Of a DNA stretch of 52,998 nt, positions 15,570-40,509 are shown in pieces; position 1 is the first letter of the stretch, and the number at the start of each line of letters is the position of its first letter. The stretch spans positions 1-52,998 of IMG/VR virus record IMGVR_UViG_3300031659_000011, one strand, 5' to 3'. The DNA comes from a virus. The position numbers were made by a program, and so were the translations under genes. A model generated the notes under the pieces. That model was not told the DNA's origin. It ran no database searches and saw nothing but the letters and a program-made list of their open reading frames with translations.

Positions 15570-15863
15570 TCCCAGCCAATTAGCTATGAGCTATGAGCTC
15601 TGAGCTCTGAGCTATTAGCCCGCAGCCAATTAGCTCTGAGCTAATAAGGGTCAGGGTGTTAAAGGGTCAAGGTGTTAAAGGGTCAAGGTGTTAAAGGGTC
15701 AGGGTGTTAAAGGGTCAGGGCGTTAGCTGGTCCGCCGTTAGCTCTGAGCTCTGAGCTCTGAGCTATTAAGGGTCAGGGTGCTAGCTGGTCCACTGTTAGC
15801 TCTGAGCTATTAAGGGTCAGGGTGCTAGCTGGTCCACTGTTAGCTCTGAGCTCTGAGCTCAGG
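15570..15863. repeat. Composite tandem repeats (CTGAGCT heptamers, 16-bp and 44-bp units)
   Basis: The non-coding stretch holds three repeat classes. There are runs of the heptamer GAGCTCT (for example 15591-15613 and 15741-15764). There are five consecutive 16-bp units AAGGGTCAGGGTGTTA with one or two changes (15646-15725). There are two perfect 44-bp units (15760-15803 and 15804-15847). They are flanked to the right by a perfect 14-bp palindrome, AGCGCTGCAGCGCT, at 15879-15892. No supported gene is present. Such arrays often serve as origin, recombination or packaging sites. Confidence 0.8.
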
Positions 15864-16021: not shown

Positions 16022-16046
16022 AAAAAAAGGTCCGTTAGGACCTTTT
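16022..16046 (-). terminator. Rho-independent terminator of the early minus operon
   Basis: On the minus strand AAAAGGTCC, a TAAC loop and GGACCTTTT form a perfect stem followed by TTTTTTT. It lies about 50 bp after the last early gene (stop at 16092) and should end the operon that begins near 25 kb. The reverse strand has a shorter T tract. Confidence 0.85.
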
Positions 16047-16091: not shown

Positions 16092-16241
16092 TTAGGGGGG
16101 AGGGGTCGGCTCAGCTAGTTTAGCCATATACTTTATAGCGTCGACTTGCTCGGGCCTTACCCATACTTTGAGCTCTACCAGCCCTGCCGCCAGTCTTGCA
16201 TCGCGCAGTCTTTTCATCATAACTTTTTTTGGTATCGGCAT
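16092..16241 (-). CDS. Small regulator-like protein (49 residues)
   Basis: The reading frame is MPIPKKVMMKRLRDARLAAG then LVELKVWVRPEQVDAIKYMA. The pattern of a basic helix, AGL, a V-x-V-W-V strand, P-E and a helix is a common small phage protein type, reminiscent of ribbon-helix-helix DNA-binding folds. A GAGGAGA ribosome site directly follows the upstream stop. Last gene before the terminator. Confidence 0.65.
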   Translation of the reverse strand: MPIPKKVMMKRLRDARLAAGLVELKVWVRPEQVDAIKYMAKLAEPTPPP

Positions 16242-16252
16242 ATCTTATCTCC

Positions 16253-16435
16253 TCAGTTAAATCCAAGCCCGCTATCGTTATATGTAAGGCCGTACTCATC
16301 TACGCCCATATAGCCGAGATCGTTGGCTTTATTTTCGACGGTGTTATTGCTGTCTCCTACGATAATTGCCACAATTACGTTCGTTTCTACGTTGTAAATA
16401 TAGCCCTCCACCGTACCTTTTTTTGGTATTGGCAT
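16253..16435 (-). CDS. Small hypothetical protein (60 residues)
   Basis: Starts MPIPKKGTVEGYIYNVETNV. Short beta-rich N-terminal half and acidic C-terminal half. It shares the AAGATATGCC(A/G)ATACC initiation region with the next gene, including the MPIPKK start, so the 5' ends appear duplicated. Strong AAGGAGA ribosome site. Function unknown. Confidence 0.65.
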   Translation of the reverse strand: MPIPKKGTVEGYIYNVETNVIVAIIVGDSNNTVENKANDLGYMGVDEYGLTYNDSGLGFN

Positions 16436-16446
16436 ATCTTATCTCC

Positions 16447-17139
16447 TTATTTAAATTTGATTTGATTTTTAGCGGCGCCATGGGCTGGGAACGCTATTAT
16501 TGTGCTACGCTGTTTGCTGCACATTTGACAGCTAGTGCACGTCACGTCGTCTTTATAAGTGGCAGGGCATATTACTACGTTGTGGCCCGCTGGACTCTTA
16601 AAGTTTGATGTTTGATCTACAGGCACAATAGCGACGACGGGCGCTATATTTAAAGCCATGAGGTCGTCGGCGTGATCTATGTTATTGCCCGACAAATTTA
16701 TCGTGAACCCGTCGCGATTTGCGGCAGCGACTGTGACCCTATTTGCCTTGATTGACATATCGTGATGAGTAAAGCTGATCACCCTGCGGCCTCCGTTTGC
16801 TCGCGTTAGCCGTCGGATCTGCCCTCGGTCCATTACTTCGTCTACGTGATAAAAATCCCCCGAGACATTATGTCTCCAAATAGGCGCGGTCATAGTTTCG
16901 ACTTTGTTAATGAGAGCGTCAAATGTGCCCCCACGCTCCCCCGAGTCTAGCTTATTCCAATTTAGTTTTGTGTGGAATCCCGACTCAGCATAGCAAGGGC
17001 TCTCGTATTTGCTAGTGCTGGGGTTCCACACTCGTTTTAAGGGACAGACTGCAGGACACGTGCTCCGTTGACTGTTAGTGGTGGGCATTGGCCCTGTTTT
17101 AGCGTTTGCTGACTTTTTAACAAATTGCACGAGTTGCAT
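16447..17139 (-). CDS. Cys-rich DUF7227-type phage protein
   Basis: 230 residues. The N-terminal signature NAKTGPMPTTNSQRSTCPAV continues to CPLK and later SPCYAESG, giving a C-x3-C...C set. The C-terminal part has VVICPATYKDDVTCTSC then QMCSKQR, another C...C-x2-C-x2-C set. In between are DFYHVDEVMD, ISFTHHD and INLSGNNIDHADD. This layout belongs to a widespread phage family of unknown function (DUF7227), related in style to the Gp37/Gp68 Cys proteins. Metal or Fe-S binding is likely but unproven. It is preceded by hammerhead ribozyme copy 1. Confidence 0.7.
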   Translation of the reverse strand: MQLVQFVKKSANAKTGPMPTTNSQRSTCPAVCPLKRVWNPSTSKYESPCYAESGFHTKLNWNKLDSGERGGTFDALINKVETMTAPIWRHNVSGDFYHVDEVMDRGQIRRLTRANGGRRVISFTHHDMSIKANRVTVAAANRDGFTINLSGNNIDHADDLMALNIAPVVAIVPVDQTSNFKSPAGHNVVICPATYKDDVTCTSCQMCSKQRSTIIAFPAHGAAKNQIKFK

Positions 17140-17169
17140 TATCTAATCTCCTATTTACTTATAGCTGAT

Positions 17170-17228
17170 GGTCTCATCAGTGCCGCAGAGAGCGGCAGAC
17201 TAAGGGCACTCTGCCCCTAGTTTCGACC
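17170..17228 (-). ncRNA. Type II hammerhead ribozyme, copy 1
   Basis: Read on the minus strand: GGTC (stem II 5'), GAAA, stem III CTAGGGGC/GCCCTTAG closed by AGAGT, then the UC cleavage site, stem I TGCCGC/GCGGCA closed by TCTCT, the CTGATGA core, and GACC (stem II 3'). Every invariant hammerhead nucleotide is present: C3-U-G-A-N-G-A9, G12-A-A-A15.1, U16.1-C17 and the C15.2-G16.2 pair. Stem II is the open one, hence type II. Predicted cut is between 17198 and 17197. It starts 4 nt after the upstream stop and ends 30 nt before the next ATG. Confidence 0.9.
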
Positions 17229-17232
17229 TGTG

Positions 17233-17406
17233 CTACTCTTCTGGGCTATCGCATTTAGTCTCTAACGCAACTAGTGCGTCGCGCTTAGCCAATATAGCTT
17301 CGAGCTCTGGGGTCGGACGCTTGCCCGTTATAATCTCTTCCAGCATGTAGCCCGTTATTAGCTTTTCTTCGATCTCCCAGTACAACTTGCCTAATGTTTT
17401 AATCAT
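17233..17406 (-). CDS. Small hypothetical protein (57 residues)
   Basis: Starts MIKTLGKLYWEIEEKLITGY and continues with a helical region ending LETKCDSPEE. Preceded by a GGAG ribosome site with 8-nt spacing. It lies between hammerhead copies 2 and 1, so after processing it would sit on its own small mRNA. No family recognised. Confidence 0.65.
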   Translation of the reverse strand: MIKTLGKLYWEIEEKLITGYMLEEIITGKRPTPELEAILAKRDALVALETKCDSPEE

Positions 17407-17436
17407 TATCTAATCTCCTATTTACTTATAACTGAT

Positions 17437-17495
17437 GGTCTCATCAGTGCCGCTGATAGCGACAGACTAAGGGCACTCTGCCCCTAGTTTCGACC
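17437..17495 (-). ncRNA. Type II hammerhead ribozyme, copy 2
   Basis: Same architecture as copy 1: stem II GGTC/GACC, GAAA, stem III CTAGGGGC/GCCCTTAG, UC cleavage site, stem I TGTCGC/GCGGCA with loop TATCA, CTGATGA core. Relative to copy 1, a stem I C-G pair becomes U-G and the loop changes from TCTCT to TATCA, while the core is unchanged. Predicted cut is between 17465 and 17464. It begins 3 nt after the upstream gene's stop codon and ends 30 nt before the next ATG. Confidence 0.9.
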
Positions 17496-17498
17496 TCT

Positions 17499-18209
17499 CT
17501 ACACAGATATGGTCAAGCGAGCGTCGGCTAGCACTGACTCTATTTGATCAGTCACGTCTAGCTCACTAGCTACTATTTTAACGATATCGTCTGCGTGACT
17601 AAATATGTCAAAGTCGTCAGCGGGCCTGTAGCCTCCTTCGTACAAAATGCTTACAACTGAGTCCTCAATCATACTCTCATCTATGACGTGATCGCCAAGC
17701 TCAAACTCTCTCGCGCGCTCGTATCCATTATCACTGAGTATGCCTAGCACTCGGTCCTCGAGCTCTTCATCTAGTCCATTATCGCTGATTATGCCTAGCA
17801 CTTGGTCCTCGATCCTTGCCTCTATGTCCTCCGCGTACTCCAGGCACTCGCAGCCGCATCCGTTAGCCTCAATTATACCTAGCACCGCCGCCTCACTGGC
17901 CCCATTAATATAGGGGGTGGTGCGAGGCTCTATAACTTTAAAGCTCAGACCAAAACTGCTGGGGTTAACATGGTCTAGAGTATCTGCGTGCCTGTTTCTA
18001 CGCCCGACCAACTTCCAGTCTTCCATTTTTCCGCCGTATATGCTTGTGTCTATGTCCATTATTATAAAGGGCAGCATAAGCTCACTGTCACTCGCAGAGG
18101 GCCCGCGGACTCCGTCCCCATAATTAAGCATCAAGCCGCTCTGAGTTACTAATGCAACTAGCACCTGTTGACCGTCGTCCTTCCTTAAAAATTTAGTTAT
18201 AGCGCTCAT
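17499..18209 (-). CDS. Acidic phage protein with internal repeats
   Basis: 236 residues, acidic. The N-terminal half is mixed alpha/beta. Residues ~120-225 hold repeated units such as IEDQVLGIISDNGLD and LEDRVLGILSDNGYE, with degenerate relatives (IEDSVVSILYEGGYR). A short Cys cluster, NGCGCECLEYAED, lies at the start of the repeat region. The ATG overlaps the stop of the preceding gene (ATGA). Function unknown. The repeats suggest a binding or scaffold role. Confidence 0.75.
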   Translation of the reverse strand: MSAITKFLRKDDGQQVLVALVTQSGLMLNYGDGVRGPSASDSELMLPFIIMDIDTSIYGGKMEDWKLVGRRNRHADTLDHVNPSSFGLSFKVIEPRTTPYINGASEAAVLGIIEANGCGCECLEYAEDIEARIEDQVLGIISDNGLDEELEDRVLGILSDNGYERAREFELGDHVIDESMIEDSVVSILYEGGYRPADDFDIFSHADDIVKIVASELDVTDQIESVLADARLTISV

Positions 18210-18421
18210 GACTGCACCTCCGCTGCAATAAAGTCCGCGGTATTTGTAGACGACTCGAGGCTCGGGCTGCTAAGTATCTCAGTGACGTCGCCAACACTCA
18301 TTAGACTTGTATATACATTGCTAGCATAAAAGCCGCCAAACATGTTTGGCGCTCCTTTGTATACCGTTCTCACTTTGTACTTTCCATCTTTCCGTTTGTT
18401 CCCGATTATTGATATTTGCAT
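18206..18421 (-). CDS. Small hypothetical protein (71 residues)
   Basis: Starts MQISIIGNKRKDGKYKVRTV: a beta-rich N-terminal half, then a Ser/Thr-rich acidic helix (SSPSLESSTNTADFIAAEVQS). It is the first gene after hammerhead copy 3, with a GGAG ribosome site, and is coupled to the 236-residue gene that follows. No family recognised. Confidence 0.65.
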   Translation of the reverse strand: MQISIIGNKRKDGKYKVRTVYKGAPNMFGGFYASNVYTSLMSVGDVTEILSSPSLESSTNTADFIAAEVQS

Positions 18422-18448
18422 TTTTCTAATCTCCTATTCATGGCTGAT

Positions 18449-18507
18449 GGTCTCATCAGTGCCGCAGAGAGCGACAGACTAGGGGCACTCTGCCCCCAGT
18501 TTCGACC
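18449..18507 (-). ncRNA. Type II hammerhead ribozyme, copy 3
   Basis: Minus strand: GGTC, GAAA, stem III CTGGGGGC/GCCCCTAG with loop AGAGT, UC site, stem I TGTCGC/GCGGCA with loop TCTCT, CTGATGA, GACC. Compared with copy 1, stem III has A-U changed to G-U and G-U changed to G-C, so pairing is kept. Core intact. Predicted cut is between 18477 and 18476. It lies 6 nt after the upstream stop and 27 nt before the next start. Confidence 0.9.
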
Positions 18508-18513
18508 TGTGGG

Positions 18514-18801
18514 CTATCTGGTGGCGGTGGGCGGTCCACCCTCCCATAAATCTAAATCAGCTATGCCCTGTATGTAGTCGGTGGGGTCCTCCATTATCTC
18601 CACCATTTGTCCGTCTTTTATGGCCCAGTATTCTAACTCGGCTGCTACTGCTTCAGCTATCGAGAGATCCCCGTACAGTTCTACCCAGTCCGATCGGTCG
18701 CGGCACTCTAGTGCGCACGCTGCTCCAAATGATACCTCGCGGCGATCAGTTGCTACCGCTTCCATAAATGCAATAAAACTAGATAAGTCATTGTTTTTCA
18801 T
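18514..18801 (-). CDS. Small acidic hypothetical protein (95 residues)
   Basis: Starts MKNNDLSSFIAFMEAVATDR. Helical N-terminal part, then ECRDRSDWVELYGDLSIAEA and an acidic C-terminus (TDYIQGIADLDLWEGG). Trp/Asp-rich, no catalytic motif. It is the most upstream gene of the ribozyme-punctuated cluster. Function unknown. Confidence 0.65.
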   Translation of the reverse strand: MKNNDLSSFIAFMEAVATDRREVSFGAACALECRDRSDWVELYGDLSIAEAVAAELEYWAIKDGQMVEIMEDPTDYIQGIADLDLWEGGPPTATR

Positions 18802-18836
18802 CGTTATATACCCTGTTGTTGTTATGTGAGATCTAA

Positions 18837-18864
18837 TTATTACATATAAAGGGTATGTGGTAAA
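18837..18864 (-). promoter_or_regulatory. Possible promoter for the ribozyme-punctuated cluster
   Basis: On the minus strand TTTACC (18859-18864), a 16-bp spacer and TAATAA (18837-18842) give a weak sigma70-like pair about 36 bp before the ATG at 18801. An ATACCCT/AGGGTAT inverted pair also flanks this region. Tentative. Confidence 0.3.
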
Positions 18865-19027
18865 GACTTACTATAGTTATTTATGGGCTGGCTGGGGCTG
18901 TTTATATATTGGCGTCGGATTAATGGCGTGCAATAAAGCCACTGGGGCTGCAGCGTTTAGCGCGTAGGTAAGTGGAGGCTCGGCTAGGGTTAGTAGGTTG
19001 GCGGCCCCTCTGTGTGAGCCTAGGACC

Positions 19028-19152
19028 GCTGTTGGGCTAATCGCTGTTGGGCTAATCGCTGTTGGGCTAATCGCTGTTGGGCTAATCGCTGTTGGGCTAA
19101 TCGCTGTTGGGCTAATCGCTGTTGGGCTAATCGCTGTTGGGCTAATCGCTGT
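19028..19152. repeat. Eight tandem 15-bp iterons
   Basis: The unit GCTGTTGGGCTAATC is repeated 8 times without change, plus 5 bases of a ninth. This is an iteron-like array in non-coding DNA. The unit length is a multiple of 3, so it leaves spurious reading frames open. It could be an origin binding site for the primase-helicase system or another control element. Confidence 0.85.
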
Positions 19153-19204
19153 CTGACAATTGATTGACAATTGCCTGACAGCTCTGAGCTCTGAGCTCTG
19201 AGCT
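19148..19204. repeat. Inverted repeat plus CTGAGCT heptamers next to iterons
   Basis: GCTGTC (19148-19153) and GACAGC (19177-19182) form an inverted pair around two TTGACAATTG-like direct repeats. They are followed by three GCTCTGA heptamers (19181-19204), the same heptamer seen in the array at 15570-15863. This links the two non-coding regions. Confidence 0.6.
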
Positions 19205-19696: not shown

Positions 19697-20173
19697 CTAA
19701 ACACCTCGAACATACACGTGCGGCGACGCACTTTTACCCGCCGATTGACCAGCAGCAGCTGAGTTTATATCCTTGAGCACAGCTTTGAGCGTTAGCTCTG
19801 ACCTTTCTAAATCTGCTTCGAGCGCTATTATCTCAGCATGTACCCACGCGTGCACCTCTGAGTCGGGGCGGACCCGCTCGCTCAATAGCTCCTTAGACTT
19901 GACGCCGTCCTCACTGCCAAGACCAAGTTGGGTGGTTATGTAGTCGTGCACCTCGCCGACATTTTCAAAGCTACCGAGCCTGCCATCATCAACCTCGACG
20001 CCAAACTCGGCCTCTAGATCTAGTGTCAGCTCTATCTCATCGAGTGAGTCAGCGCCCAAATCGTCAGCAAAGCGGCTTGACCGAGTCACGTTGACAACTC
20101 CAAAACTGGAAATGATAATGTTGTCAATGGCTTGAATGACATCGTCCCTACTTCTGTGCAGTGCTTTACTCAT
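19697..20173 (-). CDS. Acyl carrier protein with C-terminal extension
   Basis: 158 residues. Residues 1-~85 are a type II acyl carrier protein. The phosphopantetheine site is the Ser in DDLGADSLDEIELTLDLEAE (Ser43), followed by FGVEVDD and a VHDYITTQL last helix. Classical ACPs are about 80 residues. Here a further ~70 residues follow, forming a charged helix (SEVHAWVHAEIIALEADLER) and a Gly/Ser tail. A holo-ACP synthase from the host would be needed for activation. A role in host lipid diversion or acylation of a phage product is inference. GAGGA ribosome site; terminator downstream. Confidence 0.85.
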   Translation of the reverse strand: MSKALHRSRDDVIQAIDNIIISSFGVVNVTRSSRFADDLGADSLDEIELTLDLEAEFGVEVDDGRLGSFENVGEVHDYITTQLGLGSEDGVKSKELLSERVRPDSEVHAWVHAEIIALEADLERSELTLKAVLKDINSAAAGQSAGKSASPHVYVRGV

Positions 20174-25241: not shown

Positions 25242-26006
25242 ATGTTAATGTACAACAGTAAGAACGAACGCCACCTTTCGGAACTTGAGCTAGGCTTTTT
25301 GCAAACCCCAAAAGCACTAGGAGCTTTCCACAAGCCCTATCCTTTCAGCTCTTATATGAATGACATTAAAGATGCGTTTGACCGCGAAGGCCTCATAGTA
25401 TCGAAGGAAGAGTACGTCGTATCTAAAGATGACAATAGATTCTTCGGCACCCTCGCTATCTCACCTCAGACTACCCACAGTAACTTAATAGAATCTCAGG
25501 ACTGGGAACTATTGGTGGGCGTGAGGGGGTCGCACGACCAGCGTATCCCTCGGGGGATGGCAATTGGTAGTCATGTATTTGTTTGTTCTAACTTGATGTT
25601 CTCGGGTAACATGAGCACCTTTGCTACCAAACAGACTACTAACATAGCCGCTCGCTTACCCCGTCTTATACGTGATTCAGTTGCCCGCATCCCCGCCCTC
25701 GCAGAGCTTCAGGAGAATAAATACAATCAATTTAAAGAGCGCATTATCACTGGCGGGGATGCTGACACACTACTACTAGACATTCACCGTCGGGGTGGTA
25801 TGTCGGCGGCCCAGCTAGGCGTAGCTGTTAGCGAGTGGGATGCCCCTAAATATGTAGAGCATGGCAGCTACGGGTCTTCTCTTTGGAGGCTAATGAATGC
25901 CTGCACTGAGGCTCTGAAACCTCGGGGCGACAACGCCAACCACCAAATAGTGGCTGATCGTAGCGCCATAATTGACCAGCGCGTATCTGCCTTCGCTACC
26001 TGCTAG
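25242..26006 (+). CDS. DUF932 family protein
   Basis: 254 residues, recognised as DUF932 (phage/plasmid-like protein) by features such as VGVRGSHDQRIPRGMAIGS, HVFVCSNLMFSGN and FATKQTTNIAARLP. The molecular role is not settled. These proteins accompany replication or recombination genes in phages and plasmids. An AGGAG ribosome site precedes the start. First gene of the plus-strand block and probably strongly expressed, since two hairpins follow it. Confidence 0.8.
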   Translation: MLMYNSKNERHLSELELGFLQTPKALGAFHKPYPFSSYMNDIKDAFDREGLIVSKEEYVVSKDDNRFFGTLAISPQTTHSNLIESQDWELLVGVRGSHDQRIPRGMAIGSHVFVCSNLMFSGNMSTFATKQTTNIAARLPRLIRDSVARIPALAELQENKYNQFKERIITGGDADTLLLDIHRRGGMSAAQLGVAVSEWDAPKYVEHGSYGSSLWRLMNACTEALKPRGDNANHQIVADRSAIIDQRVSAFATC

Positions 26007-26021
26007 ACCTCCAAACCCCTT

Positions 26022-26053
26022 GCGCCAACGCGACCTTCCTCCCGCGTTGGCGC
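26022..26053 (+). terminator. Strong GC hairpin after DUF932 gene
   Basis: GCGCCAACGCG and CGCGTTGGCGC form a perfect 11-bp stem with a 10-nt loop. There is no T tract directly after it, so it may mainly stabilise the mRNA end or act with the second hairpin. Confidence 0.6.
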
Positions 26054-26056
26054 CTT

Positions 26057-26094
26057 GCCTCGCCGCTCATAATCTTGGGCCGCGGGGCTTTTTT
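26057..26094 (+). terminator. Rho-independent terminator after DUF932 gene
   Basis: GCCTCGC (26057-26063) pairs with GCGGGGC (26082-26088), followed by TTTTTT (26089-26094). It could reduce read-through into the following replication genes. Confidence 0.6.
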
Positions 26095-33138: not shown

Positions 33139-36100
33139 TTAATCCTCTAGAAAACGCTCGGACCCTTCCATCACTCGCTGCGCTACGCGGTTCATTCTCC
33201 TTTGTATTAGCTGCGATCTCTGCTGCTTAATCTCTGGACTATAATCGCTGCGCAGTACGGCTTCTCTTTCCTTCCGCAGATTCCTTAACGTCTTTTGTGT
33301 CTTCAGGAGAGCTGGGAGTGCACGCAATCTCTTCTTGTTATCACCATGGAGCTCCCTAGCGGCGTCAAGCCCTTGTCTGTCGGTCTTTGCTAACGCTTTT
33401 ATCGTAGTGCTTATCTCTTCGAGGTCGCCTAGTGTGTCATAAAAGTCAGTTACAAACTGCGAAGACTTAACCCTATCGCCTTTGAAGATGGCGCCAATCA
33501 ATGGCATATCAGGGAGGCCTATAGGGGTCTTAGTGGGGTTATCAGACGCCGCTCTTACCGCCATGTCTGCCGCTTTTAAAACGTAGGCCCCTAGCGTTCC
33601 AGTGTAACCCTTCCACAGGTGCTGCAATCTCTTAGGGGAAAGTCCGAGCCACTCAGCTAGGTCAGTGTCCCCTGCTGCCATGGCGAGATCGGAGGTGTAT
33701 GAGTTAAACCGTTGGCTACTAATCTTCCCTTGATCGGATCTACTCTCAATGGGCGTGTCAAAAAACACAGATCTGTTAGCAAACACTTCAGCAATAGGTA
33801 GAGCAAACTGAGGTATAGGGTTCAGCCCTAGCGTAGTTATAAGCCCGTGTACTATCGACCACGTCACTTTTTCGCTGGGTTGAGACTCAGATATCCAAGC
33901 CCGATACATACGCTCAGGTATTGTGCCAGCAATGATACCTATCTCAAAAGGCTTGGGAATTGCCCAGTGTTGTTCGCCCATAAATATGTGCCAGTAGGCA
34001 TCCTTCTCCCAGTCTTGTAGGTTTTTATAGCGCTCATCGTCGTCGTTAAGCGCAGCTAGAGCCACAGAGAATGCGGCTATCTTAGCCATTTGAAGTGCCA
34101 CTAGCGCTGGTCGGTTTGTACCCGCGCGACCTAACTTAGATAGACCCTGTAACCTAGCATTAAGGAAAGGGATCATATCCGTCAGGAATATCATAAGCGC
34201 ATAATTACCCCGAAGGCTGTAGTCCATTAAATCCTTAGACTCGAATAGCACTTGCGCCAAAGGCTTACCTTCCTCTATAGCTGAAGCAGCTGTGGCAATA
34301 CGACTTGAGTTTTCAACCTTGTCACCCGCAGACCTGTAGTGCTGCCAACCTCTGCTCACCGCGTCCTTGCCGTCGAGTAGCATGCTTGCCATCTTAGCTG
34401 GTGTGTCTACTCTGGCGTCCATATGGTCCCCAGCTTGCTGTCTACTTAGCCCGTGTTTTACGAGCTCTCTGCGCATTATCTCAGCGGAAGCCTCAGGGTC
34501 GGTACCGTGGACGTACCCGCCTTGGAAAGACGCTCCGCCAGCCATCAGCATGCGGTGTATTCCGTCTTCTTTAAAGGCGCTTTTTGCACCCTTAATAGCT
34601 GACAAACCGAAGGTCATTCCATCAGGGTTTATTGCCCAAGCGTGTGCCGCGTCACGTATAAAGTTCCTCAACATAAAGTCAGGGCTAGCGGTAACGCCCA
34701 CAGTTAGTAGACCTTTGAAGTATCTGCCTGCTCTCATCGCAACATTTTGAGACCCCTTATATCCTAGGTGGTTTATCGCGCTAATGACCGCTGGGTGGTC
34801 CTCACTCACTCGGTAGTACTCGGTCTTGCCATTCCGCTTAACGCTAAATACGTTAGCGTCGGTGGGGGTGGTGGCAGCCCAGAGCTGCTCATAACCCTCA
34901 GTGCTCAACTTGTTAACCGCGTTGACTATCTTTATTTCTTTAGATGTCTTATCCATACCTAGCCATTCAGCTACTTTAACCGCGTTTTTCCTATCCTTAT
35001 TTATGTAGGCGTTAATAGACGCCTTAGATATGTTTACCTTCTCGTATTCGATGCCTACTTCACTCATAAACTCCGTACCGTTTAGGTTCTCCACCATCTT
35101 TAAAGTGGCGCTGTTCTTTACCGACGCGTCAGTTAGTCTCATCCAGTTAGCTAGTACGTTCTCGAGTAGGTTGCCTGTAGACGCCTCGCTACCTGTTAAC
35201 ATCTTAATACCTGATGTCTGGTTAGCTAGGCCGCGGGCCGCGTTGGGGGATACGATACCCGCCCCATCTTCAGTCTGCCTAAAGAAAGGCACATACCATT
35301 CACTCTCCCATTCAGCTCTGGAATCTGGGTTTATTAACCCAGCCTCTTGGGCGAAGTCCAACATAGCTACATTGATTGCCATGTACTCTTCTTTAGCGGT
35401 CTCAAACTTAGCAGAGTTATCTGAGGTCTTCTTAGACTTTAGAACGTCTATATCCTCTCGGGTTAAATTGTGTTCTTTGCCCTCGCGCATAAGCTCTTCA
35501 GCTCGGTTTCCTGCCATCCACATGAACCAGCTATCCGCATCAGCGCCTAGGGAGGTTAGTACATCGAGCATCCCCTTAGTTTTGTAGTCCCCAACAGGTA
35601 CACCATCCTCCCACTTAAGGGCCCCGTGGTGCATGACGTGGGTCATCATGTCAGCAATACCTGTAGCTAGCCTGGCTGCCACGTAGGCGCTGCCCGCGAA
35701 ATCGTTAGCCGCAATGCCTTTACGCAAGAAGTCTTCAGCCTTCTTCAAACCGATGAGGCCATCAAATATGCCTTCGTACATACTGTCACCAACGTCGTCG
35801 ATGACGTTTATAACACCTGCGTCTATTATGTCGGCTATAGCCTTCACTAGACCACTACTGCGCCGCTTACCCATGCCCAGCTTATCTATCAGCTTACGGT
35901 TATCAGTATCTAGGACCCTATCCTTAGGGGGTTTGCGCGAGAATAATATATCAGGGCCCTCAGCATTATCTGCCTGAGTGTCCTTAGACCCTTCTGTATC
36001 AGACTTAGGACTACTCGATCTCATGAGGTCGAAGTTATCTGCGCTATCGGAATTGAACTCAGCGTTAATGGATCTTATGTCTGAGGGGTTAAACATTATG

Positions 36101-39100
36101 CGTTGAGGTACTTCCTCGCCAGCTAGAGCTACGCCTTCGTCACTTAAGGTGTCCACACCTATGTAACCTTCAGCAATGTACCCTTCTATCTCGGCCTGCA
36201 GGGCCTCAAGATCCGTGGTTTCATCTTGGAGTCGCTTGCCAAACTTGTTAGCTTCATTCCAACTTAGCTTTTTAAACTTACCCTCTTTTATATAGACGGG
36301 TATTACCTGACCGTCACCGTAGTCGGTTTGACCCGCGTATGCGCTGTTAACAGACTCTACATAGTTATTAAAGCTAGCGTCGGAGTCCGAGGGTTTAAGG
36401 TGGATCTTATCAAATTTGTAATCATAGTCTTGACTGTAGTCGGTTTCAGCGTTTGTCACAAAATCAAAACCTTGTTTTGTAAACTTGAAGACCCCTTCGT
36501 CCGTCGCCCAAATTCTGCCTACTGCGCGCTCATCGCCCATACTAATATCGTCGAGGACTCCGCTGTAGGAAACTTCGCTACTTGTTTTAGATTCAGGCAG
36601 GGTAGTCTTGCCTACCTTACCTAGCTCCTTCTCTAATCGCCTATTCATCTTAAGTTCATACATGCCGCCATACGATGAGGCTTCATCAGGCGAAGACGTT
36701 AGGAAGGTAAGGCCTCTAAAACCTTTGAAGTTGGTTTTAGTACCATGGTACCAAGTCTGACTGACATCAAAACCCATACTAACCGCTCGAGCCATGCGCC
36801 CTTTCTTAGACATGCCAAGGCGGCCTCTTCGGGAATGAGATACCTTGCGGCTGCCAGCGTTGTCAGTGTTAAATTCTGCAAAGATTGAACGTATAGTAGA
36901 TGTGTCGAATATAGCGTACTGATGGCTACCCTCTGCCATGTATTCGTTAAGTGCGCCAGACGAGCTCCACCTTCCGATGGGTCCAAGGTCTGTTATGTTG
37001 TTAAACTGCACGCCATCGACCCCGTGGCTGCGGGCTAACCTAGCTATCTGATTAGTGTCCATGCCTGCTGCAGATATCTCTGATCCGTCGGGCATTTCTA
37101 GGATTAGAAAGTCTTCTTTATCATTCCAGTTTGTGCTTCCAAAATCAACTACAGCAAACCCATCAGTCTTGAGGACAACAGGTACTACGGCTTTGTAGGC
37201 GTAAGTATTAGCCTGTAGAGTTTCACCCGCGGCCCACTGGCCCGTCCCTGCTCGGTGCATTTCACCCCTGTTAGGGTCAAACTCTTTTATATCAATACCT
37301 TCTCGCAACCCTATAAAGGCTTTAGCTACATAGCCCATCTCCGCTGCCCTAGCCATCCGAGAAGTCTTAGACATATAAGAGCTAGACTTTCTAGAATAAA
37401 CGGGGGCCGCCTTTTCAGGCTTCCGCATTTTATCAGGGGCGTACTCCATGTGGACGGTATCTGGTTTTCCTTTATTAAACTCTGAGAACACAGACTTATC
37501 CCACCCGATGGGCGCGTCACTTTGGTCCCAACTATCTCTACTTGACTCTACAAACCCTGCTGTTTTATAGATGTCGGGGAGCACAGTGTCAAAGGTATCT
37601 AGCTTGGTTCCGCCTTGCTCCACTGCTAGCGACATCATGCTGTATAAATTGCCACCGCCGTTTGTAAACACGCTGACAATAGTCCCGTCTTCCTTAATAG
37701 CAAAACCAGATGACTGATCCTTAGTTAAGAACACCTTCATATCGGAATACTCTTCTACTGAGTACACAGGTATTGATGCCCCAAACTCTAAATTGCTTTT
37801 AGCGTTTTCAATTTTATCTATAAACACCTGAGAGTTTTCTGGTGTTTGTTCAATTTCTACTAGCTCAACTGCTACGGCCTCCGCGGAGCCTAGTACGCCT
37901 TTGTAGTTGGTAGTTGGTTGGTGTATTAACCCCCGAATTCCTCCCAGAGTTCCTGCGTTCGCGGCCTTGTAAGTCCGTGTCTTGTTGACGCCTCCCCTAT
38001 CGGATCTATGCTCCCAGAGGATGTTTTGCTGGAGGAATTTCTCGCGTTGCTTGCCATCAAGTCCACTAGCTCCTGCTTGGACGCTGTCTTGCCCTGAGGT
38101 TGTGGCGTCTGGTCGTGCTGCTGTTGTGCGTCTTCTGGAATCATTTGTGTCTACCGCCTTGTTTATGGTTTTAGTATCTATGCCTTGATCTTTGGCTAAG
38201 CCAATTGCTGCGTTAGCATAGTCAGGGGCCTCATCATCTGTATAGCCCTCCTCTGAATCTTCCGCAGATTTAGCTGCGTCATATAATCTTTTCTCTGGGT
38301 ACCACAACAGTGCCTGCAAATCAGCCATAGTCATCTCGGCATTGCCGTCGCTCTGCATGTCAGCAAGAACGCCATCAAAAACCCCGCGCATCCACGATCT
38401 CTCTGAGCCATTCTGAGGGGCCTCTTTCTGCCCGTCGAGGTACCCAGCTAGTGAGTTTCCACTGGTTCGGATGCTCACGCCCGATTTAGACTGGTTAAAG
38501 ATGGTACGCAAAGCTTTAGACGTAGACATCTTCTGAATTTGCACAGCTACTTCTTCAATATTAGTTACCTTAAAAACCTCTTTACCCTTTGCGTTAACGC
38601 TGGGTTCTATCTTGAAATCCATGCGCAATGCTTTCTGAAATGAGGCTAACTTAGTAGGGGTTTTAGCTAACTTTAATATATGCTTCTCTAGCTCTTTTCC
38701 TTTAGACGCTACCATATCAGGCCTGCGCTCTATGAGACTACCTGTCCATCTGCCCCAAGTTCGCATCAGCCAACGGTCTATGGTCAATTGGTCAAAGTGG
38801 CCGTTCAGGTTGGCGAAGAAACCATTGCCAATCTTAGGGCCGAGAGTCATCGCCCCAAACACCTCAGTGCTCTGCAGCTCTCCAGTTACTTTAAACCCTA
38901 GTTTAGTTATTTGGCTAACTGAGAATTTACTTATCATGAATTCGCGGTAGGCGTCTATGCCATACTCAGCTGACTTCTCATTGAACTGAGCTAAGCTATC
39001 GTTGATTGCGCTCTGAGCCTTTCCCGCTTCTAAGTTAGTGGGCATCTGCCCTGTCTTCTTATAGTGGGAGTACACCCTTTCAGCTAGCTCAAAGTTTTTC

Positions 39101-40509
39101 TTAACCTTTAAGCCATTAGAGGTAACGGCCAGAGCAAATGTAAATGCGAACTTAGCATTCTCATCAGTAGCAATTTCGGGGTGGATCGTACTTAAAACTG
39201 CGAGGGCTTTGCTAACTGTGTTGTCATACCATCCGATAGCATTTGCGTTGCTTTTCAGGGCTTGCTTTGCGTCTTTGACCCCTAATTGTATGAGGAACTC
39301 CTTAACTTCAGGGGTAGTTTCAGACAGATTTATCCCTTGGCCTTCTACTCTTTGCTGCAGAATTTCTTTTAACTGTCGGATGTTTTTTAACTGAGTCTTC
39401 CCCGCCAGCTCGAATGATTTCTCAAGTGATGTTAGGCTTAGGTCGGAGGCGACAGGCTTGGCATCTGGAATTCGGCGGCTATTAACCACCATGGGTTTAC
39501 CCTTCGAGTCAAAGTCTCTAGTTGTGCGAAGCGCTAGAGTAACGGACCCGTCGCTGTTAACCACAGTTCCCGTGTATGTGTCTTGAGTAAACCTTGCTGC
39601 GGATATTAACAGACTATTAATTTCATTCTGGTCTAAGTCTCCCCCTAAACCGTGACGAGATAACCACAGGCGTAAGGCCTGAATGGCCTTCTTGAGTGGG
39701 CCATACTTGGCTGTTATCTCCGACATATGGGCTAGCACTTCTCGTGCTTCGGTTACTGGGTCGTTCTCTAACGCGTAAGACCCGTCCTCATTGGTGTATG
39801 CCTTTTTTAGAAAGGCGATTACGTCCATGGTAGGCTTGTGGTTAGTACGCTTTAGGTACGATATTTGGTTTACCAGCTGAGCGAAGGCGCGCTTCCCTAG
39901 CATAGTTTCTAGGCCTAAGTGGCCCACGACTTCGTGTCCCAATATTTCTATAGCTTCCTTACGGCCCTGTATAGAACCAGCTACTAGTATGATTACAGGT
40001 ACATTCTTGCCATCTTTATCTTTAATTATTGCGTATCCCCCTCCAACGTCATCGGGGTTTTTAACACCTGTTAGTTCGTCAAGATCTGCAACGGTTTGTA
40101 CTATCCTTATGTCTATCCACTTAGCTAGTTTACTCCTAGCCTTTTTAGTCCACTGACTGATTTCAACTATAGAGCTGCCGTTAGCTTTAGCCCTTTTGTA
40201 CACTACTTTAGTATCCTCAGGTTCCTTTTTTGCGGCAGGCTTAGCTTTAGTAGCTGACTTAGGTTTAAGGAGGCCTTTGACGGTTAGCTTATTTAGGTAT
40301 CCGCCTTGGCTCTTTACAAAACTAGCTAGGTCATTTCGCTCAGATAGGGCGACTTCAAACGCTGCGTTAGTGGCATGTATGTACATCTCCGCAGAGGATA
40401 TCCCTTCCGCAAAATCTTTTGCTTCCGACAGCGCTTCTTTAAACGCAGTACGGTCTGAGGAGTCAAGATTATTTAATAAATCAAAACACTTAGCTTTTGA
40501 TGACGCCAT
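33139..40509 (-). CDS. Giant polyvalent protein (ejected virion protein)
   Basis: 2456 residues. Residues ~185-200 hold an EILGHEVVGHLGLE metallopeptidase-like motif. Around ~870-1080 is an acetyltransferase-like polyvalent domain (EQGGTKLDTFDTVLPDIY). Two consecutive ADP-ribosyltransferase-like domains (ART-PolyVal style) follow. They open with MSKTSRMARAAEMGY and MSKKGRMARAVSMGFD and close with TSTIRSIFAEFN and PSDIRSINAEFN; the second has TWYHGTKTNFKGF. The C-terminal ~700 residues match large polyvalent associated regions (LPD38-like, with KVENSSRIATAASAIEEGKP). Such proteins are injected with the DNA and modify or degrade host factors. Confidence 0.85.
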   Translation of the reverse strand: MASSKAKCFDLLNNLDSSDRTAFKEALSEAKDFAEGISSAEMYIHATNAAFEVALSERNDLASFVKSQGGYLNKLTVKGLLKPKSATKAKPAAKKEPEDTKVVYKRAKANGSSIVEISQWTKKARSKLAKWIDIRIVQTVADLDELTGVKNPDDVGGGYAIIKDKDGKNVPVIILVAGSIQGRKEAIEILGHEVVGHLGLETMLGKRAFAQLVNQISYLKRTNHKPTMDVIAFLKKAYTNEDGSYALENDPVTEAREVLAHMSEITAKYGPLKKAIQALRLWLSRHGLGGDLDQNEINSLLISAARFTQDTYTGTVVNSDGSVTLALRTTRDFDSKGKPMVVNSRRIPDAKPVASDLSLTSLEKSFELAGKTQLKNIRQLKEILQQRVEGQGINLSETTPEVKEFLIQLGVKDAKQALKSNANAIGWYDNTVSKALAVLSTIHPEIATDENAKFAFTFALAVTSNGLKVKKNFELAERVYSHYKKTGQMPTNLEAGKAQSAINDSLAQFNEKSAEYGIDAYREFMISKFSVSQITKLGFKVTGELQSTEVFGAMTLGPKIGNGFFANLNGHFDQLTIDRWLMRTWGRWTGSLIERRPDMVASKGKELEKHILKLAKTPTKLASFQKALRMDFKIEPSVNAKGKEVFKVTNIEEVAVQIQKMSTSKALRTIFNQSKSGVSIRTSGNSLAGYLDGQKEAPQNGSERSWMRGVFDGVLADMQSDGNAEMTMADLQALLWYPEKRLYDAAKSAEDSEEGYTDDEAPDYANAAIGLAKDQGIDTKTINKAVDTNDSRRRTTAARPDATTSGQDSVQAGASGLDGKQREKFLQQNILWEHRSDRGGVNKTRTYKAANAGTLGGIRGLIHQPTTNYKGVLGSAEAVAVELVEIEQTPENSQVFIDKIENAKSNLEFGASIPVYSVEEYSDMKVFLTKDQSSGFAIKEDGTIVSVFTNGGGNLYSMMSLAVEQGGTKLDTFDTVLPDIYKTAGFVESSRDSWDQSDAPIGWDKSVFSEFNKGKPDTVHMEYAPDKMRKPEKAAPVYSRKSSSYMSKTSRMARAAEMGYVAKAFIGLREGIDIKEFDPNRGEMHRAGTGQWAAGETLQANTYAYKAVVPVVLKTDGFAVVDFGSTNWNDKEDFLILEMPDGSEISAAGMDTNQIARLARSHGVDGVQFNNITDLGPIGRWSSSGALNEYMAEGSHQYAIFDTSTIRSIFAEFNTDNAGSRKVSHSRRGRLGMSKKGRMARAVSMGFDVSQTWYHGTKTNFKGFRGLTFLTSSPDEASSYGGMYELKMNRRLEKELGKVGKTTLPESKTSSEVSYSGVLDDISMGDERAVGRIWATDEGVFKFTKQGFDFVTNAETDYSQDYDYKFDKIHLKPSDSDASFNNYVESVNSAYAGQTDYGDGQVIPVYIKEGKFKKLSWNEANKFGKRLQDETTDLEALQAEIEGYIAEGYIGVDTLSDEGVALAGEEVPQRIMFNPSDIRSINAEFNSDSADNFDLMRSSSPKSDTEGSKDTQADNAEGPDILFSRKPPKDRVLDTDNRKLIDKLGMGKRRSSGLVKAIADIIDAGVINVIDDVGDSMYEGIFDGLIGLKKAEDFLRKGIAANDFAGSAYVAARLATGIADMMTHVMHHGALKWEDGVPVGDYKTKGMLDVLTSLGADADSWFMWMAGNRAEELMREGKEHNLTREDIDVLKSKKTSDNSAKFETAKEEYMAINVAMLDFAQEAGLINPDSRAEWESEWYVPFFRQTEDGAGIVSPNAARGLANQTSGIKMLTGSEASTGNLLENVLANWMRLTDASVKNSATLKMVENLNGTEFMSEVGIEYEKVNISKASINAYINKDRKNAVKVAEWLGMDKTSKEIKIVNAVNKLSTEGYEQLWAATTPTDANVFSVKRNGKTEYYRVSEDHPAVISAINHLGYKGSQNVAMRAGRYFKGLLTVGVTASPDFMLRNFIRDAAHAWAINPDGMTFGLSAIKGAKSAFKEDGIHRMLMAGGASFQGGYVHGTDPEASAEIMRRELVKHGLSRQQAGDHMDARVDTPAKMASMLLDGKDAVSRGWQHYRSAGDKVENSSRIATAASAIEEGKPLAQVLFESKDLMDYSLRGNYALMIFLTDMIPFLNARLQGLSKLGRAGTNRPALVALQMAKIAAFSVALAALNDDDERYKNLQDWEKDAYWHIFMGEQHWAIPKPFEIGIIAGTIPERMYRAWISESQPSEKVTWSIVHGLITTLGLNPIPQFALPIAEVFANRSVFFDTPIESRSDQGKISSQRFNSYTSDLAMAAGDTDLAEWLGLSPKRLQHLWKGYTGTLGAYVLKAADMAVRAASDNPTKTPIGLPDMPLIGAIFKGDRVKSSQFVTDFYDTLGDLEEISTTIKALAKTDRQGLDAARELHGDNKKRLRALPALLKTQKTLRNLRKEREAVLRSDYSPEIKQQRSQLIQRRMNRVAQRVMEGSERFLED

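Follow-up and report, generated by a model that had tools for sequence, protein, structure and literature searches.

The window (the whole stretch of DNA analysed here, 52,998 bases) is a single virus record from an uncultured phage. Its genes include those for a large terminase (Terminase_3), a portal, a major head protein, a DNA polymerase, a primase/helicase and a SNF2-type helicase. A minus-strand cassette (18801-16120), situated between the genes for primase/helicase and those for lysis/packaging, encodes small proteins of unknown family, except for gene E, and carries three hammerhead motifs (S1, S2 and S3) between its genes (Table 1). A BLASTN search with the cassette against INPHARED phages yielded no match. 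In IMG/VR, the terminase and gene E had as relatives only near-identical contigs (L123, L124, L321 and L322), which provide no independent evidence, and one 50% relative (L125) without ribozymes.

Table 1. Genes, predicted ribozymes and candidate regulatory features of the cassette
Feature	Position	Strand	Description or basis
Promoter-like site	18836..18864	-	TTTACC-17-AATAAT, TG before second hexamer; directly upstream of gene A
Gene A	18514..18801	-	95 aa, no family match
Hammerhead copy S3, type II	18449..18507	-	between ORF 18514-18801 and ORF 18206-18421; predicted cut 18477/18476
S3 alternative hairpin	18444..18459	-	sequence, class covariation, folding
Shine-Dalgarno-like site of gene B, equivalent to that of gene E	18430-18435	-	sequence
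Gene B	18206..18421	-	71 aa, no family match
Gene C	17499..18209	-	236 aa, no family match; its start lies within the end of gene B, with no intervening ribozyme
Hammerhead copy S2, type II	17437..17495	-	between ORF 17499-18209 and ORF 17233-17406; predicted cut 17465/17464
S2 alternative hairpin	17432..17447	-	sequence, class covariation, folding
Shine-Dalgarno-like site of gene D, equivalent to that of gene E	17414-17419	-	sequence
Gene D	17233..17406	-	57 aa, no family match
Hammerhead copy S1, type II	17170..17228	-	between ORF 17233-17406 and ORF 16447-17139; predicted cut 17198 (C17)/17197
S1 alternative hairpin	17165..17180	-	CUGAUG (17180-17175) with CAUCAG (17170-17165), loop AGAC; sequence, class covariation, folding
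Shine-Dalgarno-like AGGAGA of gene E	17147..17152	-	sequence
Gene E	16447..17139	-	230 aa, DUF7227 (PF23872), E 2.5e-76
Intrinsic terminator-like element closing the unit	16022..16046	-	AAAAGGTCC-TAAC-GGACCTTTT-TTT; read from the sequence, consensus scan did not list it

The promoter-like site upstream of gene A constitutes weak evidence for a promoter, the number of such sites being at chance level. Two noncoding, tandem-repeat-rich stretches (15582-15852 and 19027-19204) flank the cassette and share AGCTCTG repeats; one contains 8.4 exact copies of the 15-mer CGCTGTTGGGCTAAT, the other 16- and 44-nt tandem repeats. They could mark the edges of an inserted cassette or serve as origin or regulatory repeats. 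Additionally, a second duplicated leader (16215-16262 and 16409-16456, 88% identity over 48 nt) was observed at two small genes downstream of the ribozyme genes, where it covers the Shine-Dalgarno sequence and the first codons (MPIPKK) and contains no ribozyme. Upstream of the cassette, an acyl-carrier-protein-like phage gene is located at 19697-20173 (minus strand). Elsewhere in the window, 33139-40509 (minus strand) encodes a large polyvalent protein of 2456 aa that contains an LPD38 domain. A sub-threshold match to the Xanthomonadaceae sRNA sX13 at 25978-26094 (plus strand; 36.7 bits, cut-off 50, E 0.002) displays C-rich loops and a terminator-like end.

Read along the minus strand, all three motifs have the element order GGTC - GAAA - closed stem III - UC - closed stem I - CUGAUGA - GACC. 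Stem I comprises 6-7 bp, stem III 9 bp (innermost pair counted) and stem II 4 bp, with loops on stems I and III and stem II left open. The motifs passed the test for the type II permutation, with the core CUGANGA, GAAA and a U-H cleavage site in the correct order. A base-pair-aware descriptor, which demands the core, the dinucleotide of the cleavage site and pairing in the stems, returned S1, S2 and S3 and nothing else from the 53-kb window, even when the stems were relaxed, and had no match in 200 dinucleotide-preserving shuffles of the window. The motifs are located 4, 3 and 6 nt from the preceding stop codon and 30, 30 and 27 nt from the following ATG, and the predicted 5'-OH nucleotides of S1, S2 and S3 are 17197, 17464 and 18476. 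These results bear out a first-pass annotation of this DNA, which had described three complete type II hammerheads at these positions in sense orientation to the genes, a stop codon 3-6 nt before and a start codon 27-30 nt after each, and the same 5'-OH ends. Each motif is part of a module of about 93 nt, consisting of ribozyme and Shine-Dalgarno leader, that is repeated three times with identities of 96% and 76%. Since the copies represent a duplicated module, S1, S2 and S3 do not stand for three independent origins.

At the gathering cut-offs of Rfam, the scan of the window gave no match; below them, RF02276 (Hammerhead_II) was reported for S1 and S3 with 23.7 bits each (cut-off 37), with the model aligned end to end, and S2 was not listed. 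Permutation, core and cleavage site of RF02276 are equal to those of S1-S3, whereas its consensus differs in the tail and in stem II, which is 2 bp long, compared with 4 bp here. RF02276 describes a different subclass than S1-S3.

A feature that the first-pass annotation had overlooked is the sequence AUCAG, which stands directly 3' of stem II in S1, S2 and S3. Together with the last base of stem II it gives CAUCAG, which is the reverse complement of CUGAUG in the catalytic core. The resulting alternative helix and stem II with the active core are mutually exclusive, in S1 as in the class of related sites described below.

We surveyed this class in a site set from IMG/VR pattern scans, with figures referring to the matches listed. 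The descriptor identified at least 487 distinct sites, distributed over 311 loci. Where a locus had more than one site, all of its sites lay on the same strand (85 of 85 such loci, among the matches listed), and the most sites in any locus were found in L122 (10, among the matches listed). L122, L075, L175 and L180 show 7 to 10 tandem intergenic hammerheads on one strand, with several tail types in L122. In an earlier set of 375 sites (among the matches listed), a stop codon abutting stem II combined with an ATG 5-60 nt downstream was present at 84% of the sites bearing the core-tail helix, 58% of the other sites and 4% of random positions. Across 70 diverse sequences, stem I showed compensatory variation at 6 of 6 pairs, and the core bases were fixed except for N7; counted among relatives, compensatory variation was present for stems I and II. 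The cleavage site of helix-bearing sites was always GUC or GUA. Taken together, the motif, the stem covariation and the conserved placement in hundreds of phage contigs provide good support for S1-S3 as predicted type II hammerheads.

Outside the viral contigs the class was scarce. The tail-bearing pattern had six matches in a collection of genomes from bacteria and archaea, and one record, a Rhodobacteraceae MAG contig with two sites, passed the descriptor. Consensus ribozymes searched against INPHARED gave chiefly short partial matches, and inspection of four records revealed a single type II hammerhead, belonging to the pseudoknot group. At its cut-off, Rfam recognized three sites among 12 tail-bearing loci and none among another 12 loci that contain sites. 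Rfam annotation misses many phage hammerheads, and the short pattern from this survey can find them. Two hammerhead-carrying viral contigs also contained Rfam tmRNA matches of 66-72 bases (L053, 8246-8317, and L022, 6081-6146), which are candidate tmRNA-like fragments or mimics.

N7 is the single free base of the core, and its partner in the alternative helix is the first base of the tail (N'). The final tally of this pair in viral contigs (among the matches listed) was U7-A in 108 sites, C7-G in 85, a U7-G wobble in three and U7-U in one. No purine at N7 was found together with a UCAG-type tail in the full-collection IMG/VR scan, and a U7 followed by a tail not starting with A occurred at four sites (three G wobbles and one U), compared with at least 120 sites in the scan for U7 with an A tail. 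With the partner of N7 unconstrained and N7 allowed to be A, C or G, solely C7-G was found among descriptor-positive sites (96 sites, 79 distinct). U7 sites with a GGTC stem II, searched with no constraint on the tail, had AUCAG in 26 of 140 and GUCAG in one (among the matches listed). Further, the sites not selected by any query pattern included eight with the full helix and none with a mismatched UCAG tail. Both types of pair coexist within single contigs (L161, L175, L178 and L207).

The pairing between core and tail is all-or-nothing, with a bimodal distribution, and shuffled tails pair in 0.4%. It also keeps a single register, with 123 sites at offset 0 and at most eight at any other offset (among the matches listed). 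In 70 distinct aligned sequences the six pairs of the helix were formed throughout, and both sides of the N7 pair had changed in 22 of the 70; the rows were chosen beforehand for the helix, so that the covariation and not the percentage paired is informative. The fixed core leaves five of the six pairs unable to vary, and the covariation rests on N7 and on the enrichment of UCAG. The surveyed sites are related by descent, and their counts do not equal independent events. At sites without UCAG the first tail base was mostly A irrespective of N7, and the covariation at N7 therefore belongs to the helix. Since most type II sites lack the tail, it is not needed for ribozyme function. A role of the tail in hiding the AUG within CUGAUGA was also considered and rejected, because C7 sites, which have no AUG at that position, still carry the tail. 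The motif, its placement and the covariation of the antagonist helix are direct observations. We read the core-complementary tail as a conserved antagonist helix that may serve as a product-release lock, a switch, or both.

Folding of the RNA, computed for secondary structure only, whereby tertiary contacts that could stabilise the active fold are ignored, favoured the alternative over the active fold in 120 of 123 sites, with a median difference of -1.9 kcal/mol (among the matches listed). In secondary-structure ensembles of the uncut RNA, the antagonist hairpin had a median probability of 0.97 and stem II of 0.02, and the hairpin dominated once the fifth tail base was present. In the folded downstream product of cleavage, the antagonist hairpin abuts stem I with 0 unpaired bases between them, and the Shine-Dalgarno sequence and the AUG are mostly unpaired.

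Type II hammerheads in bacteria, together with clustered arrays flanking genes in prophages, were described by Perreault et al. (2011, PMC3088659), who proposed that they process long phage transcripts into gene- or operon-length mRNAs; cleavage was demonstrated in vitro and also, with one triple array, in E. coli. A review describes the role of prokaryotic hammerheads as open and notes arrays that flank small ORFs as well as links to phages (PMC6155905). The likeness to S1-S3 is close: the prophage arrays consist of successive sense-strand hammerheads, of type II and other types, between small genes of phage-derived operons, and the cassette likewise has several sense-strand hammerheads between genes of one putative transcript. 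The cutting of a phage operon by hammerheads, which the first-pass annotation had considered unusual, is thus a known proposal, as it was published by Perreault et al. in 2011 (PMC3088659). The two groups differ in that the arrays are bacterial or prophage loci, whereas the class of S1-S3 is found almost solely in uncultivated viral contigs and has a 4-bp GGNC/GNCC stem II and the core-complementary tail.

The hammerhead of Streptomyces phage Puginator (L317, 10489-10538) is also of type II, intergenic and from a phage, but it has a 1-bp stem II and a pseudoknot between loop I and tail (UGGUU/AGCCA), with no core-complementary tail directly after stem II. Hammerheads of viroids and satellite RNAs serve RNA genomes that replicate by the rolling-circle mechanism, and their self-cleavage is modulated by alternative folds in competition with the active one; the class described here differs in that the competing structure is a short hairpin, formed locally in the mRNA leaders of dsDNA phages. 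No description of a core-complementary tail or antagonist helix was found in the open-access literature searched, where absence is not proof. The 3' tail complementary to the core appears to be the new part, and intergenic phage hammerheads are already known. S1-S3 are members of a widespread phage subclass with a conserved, predicted antagonist helix.

We think it probable, with some reserve, that the hammerheads split the cassette transcript and that the N'UCAG helix replaces the core and stem II after cleavage, while it may tune the cutting beforehand. We infer the catalysis and the processing of the mRNA, as well as the stage, before or after the cut, at which the helix chiefly acts. Segmentation of the mRNA by S1-S3 is plausible from the arrangement of the motifs. 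Cleavage of the cotranscript would yield four pieces (A, B+C, D and E+F+G). This departs from the monocistronic units that had been inferred at first. Some gene junctions have no ribozyme, as gene B (18206-18421) overlaps gene C (17499-18209) and the 11-nt spacer 16436-16446 lacks one; of the overall first reading, the hammerhead identity stands, its monocistronic products do not, and the idea is of a known kind. After each cut, the upstream mRNA would end in the stem III hairpin with a 2',3'-cyclic phosphate, and the downstream mRNA would start with a 5'-OH. The N'UCAG sequence after stem II, with the last base of stem II, would form a six-pair helix with the core CUGANG. By displacing the core and stem II it would let the products part and block their rejoining, and the downstream mRNA would be capped by two abutting hairpins (stem I and antagonist), leaving Shine-Dalgarno sequence and AUG free. 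Before cleavage, the same helix would rival the active fold and may set the extent or the timing of cutting.

Locking and release after cleavage seems the most likely role on the present sequence evidence, and its main rival, regulation before cleavage, can coexist with it. The rival in its full form, a translation-coupled switch with the antagonist hairpin as the default off fold, makes cutting depend on the state of translation: a ribosome finishing the upstream gene would cover the 5' strand of stem II, and the hairpin may be disturbed in its 3' strand by ribosomes on the downstream leader. The stop codon indeed abuts or overlaps stem II, the commonest gap being -1, where TAG shares the first G (51 of 113 helix-bearing sites), although compact phage genomes are expected to pack tightly and tail-less sites are nearly as tight. 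The uncut-RNA ensembles likewise favour the hairpin, but their probabilities leave out tertiary contacts. As the main explanation, we regard such a switch as rather unlikely.

The motifs could instead be plain processing ribozymes whose N'UCAG tail makes a tertiary contact in the active fold, such as a pseudoknot with loop I, as many type II hammerheads have (PMC3088659). Loop I is in fact conserved as UNANG in helix-bearing and other sites alike, with U as first base in 99%; in the window it reads UCUCU or UAUCA, and the tails read AUCAGC or AUCAGU. Complementarity between loop I and tail was within the permutation range, a weak test with a nearly constant tail, and the loops were then compared between classes: helix-bearing sites had no excess of Watson-Crick pairing over the other sites, and a loop I-tail pseudoknot is not supported for the class of S1-S3. 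Of the sites that lack the antagonist helix, 77% had A as the first tail base (among the matches listed), which together with the conserved loop I suggests a conserved loop I-tail contact in type II sites that would not be of Watson-Crick type. A tertiary contact leaves the strict covariation of N7 and N' unexplained, and we consider this reading improbable. Finally, the copies form a duplicated module that includes the leader, and CUGAUG...CAUCAG is palindromic, as might be expected of relics or of palindromic DNA or RNA elements (a protein site or a mobile leader module) with no ribozyme function. The compensated pairs of stem I and the core fixed except for N7 in 70 diverse sequences, together with the GUC or GUA kept at the cleavage site, argue against this, and make it very improbable.

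Locking of the cleaved products is our preferred reading, and a tail that covaries at the only free position of the core points to product release or to regulation of self-cleavage. More tentatively, and as a possibility that we would not yet rely on, these sequences may define a large group of phage hammerheads with a conserved switch, in which selection maintains pairing of the core with the 3' tail, so that the ribozyme turns itself off or locks its products, with ribosomes at the abutting stop codon setting the timing. If true, phage operons would contain, in tandem along their length, a natural mRNA switch that is self-cleaving and linked to translation.
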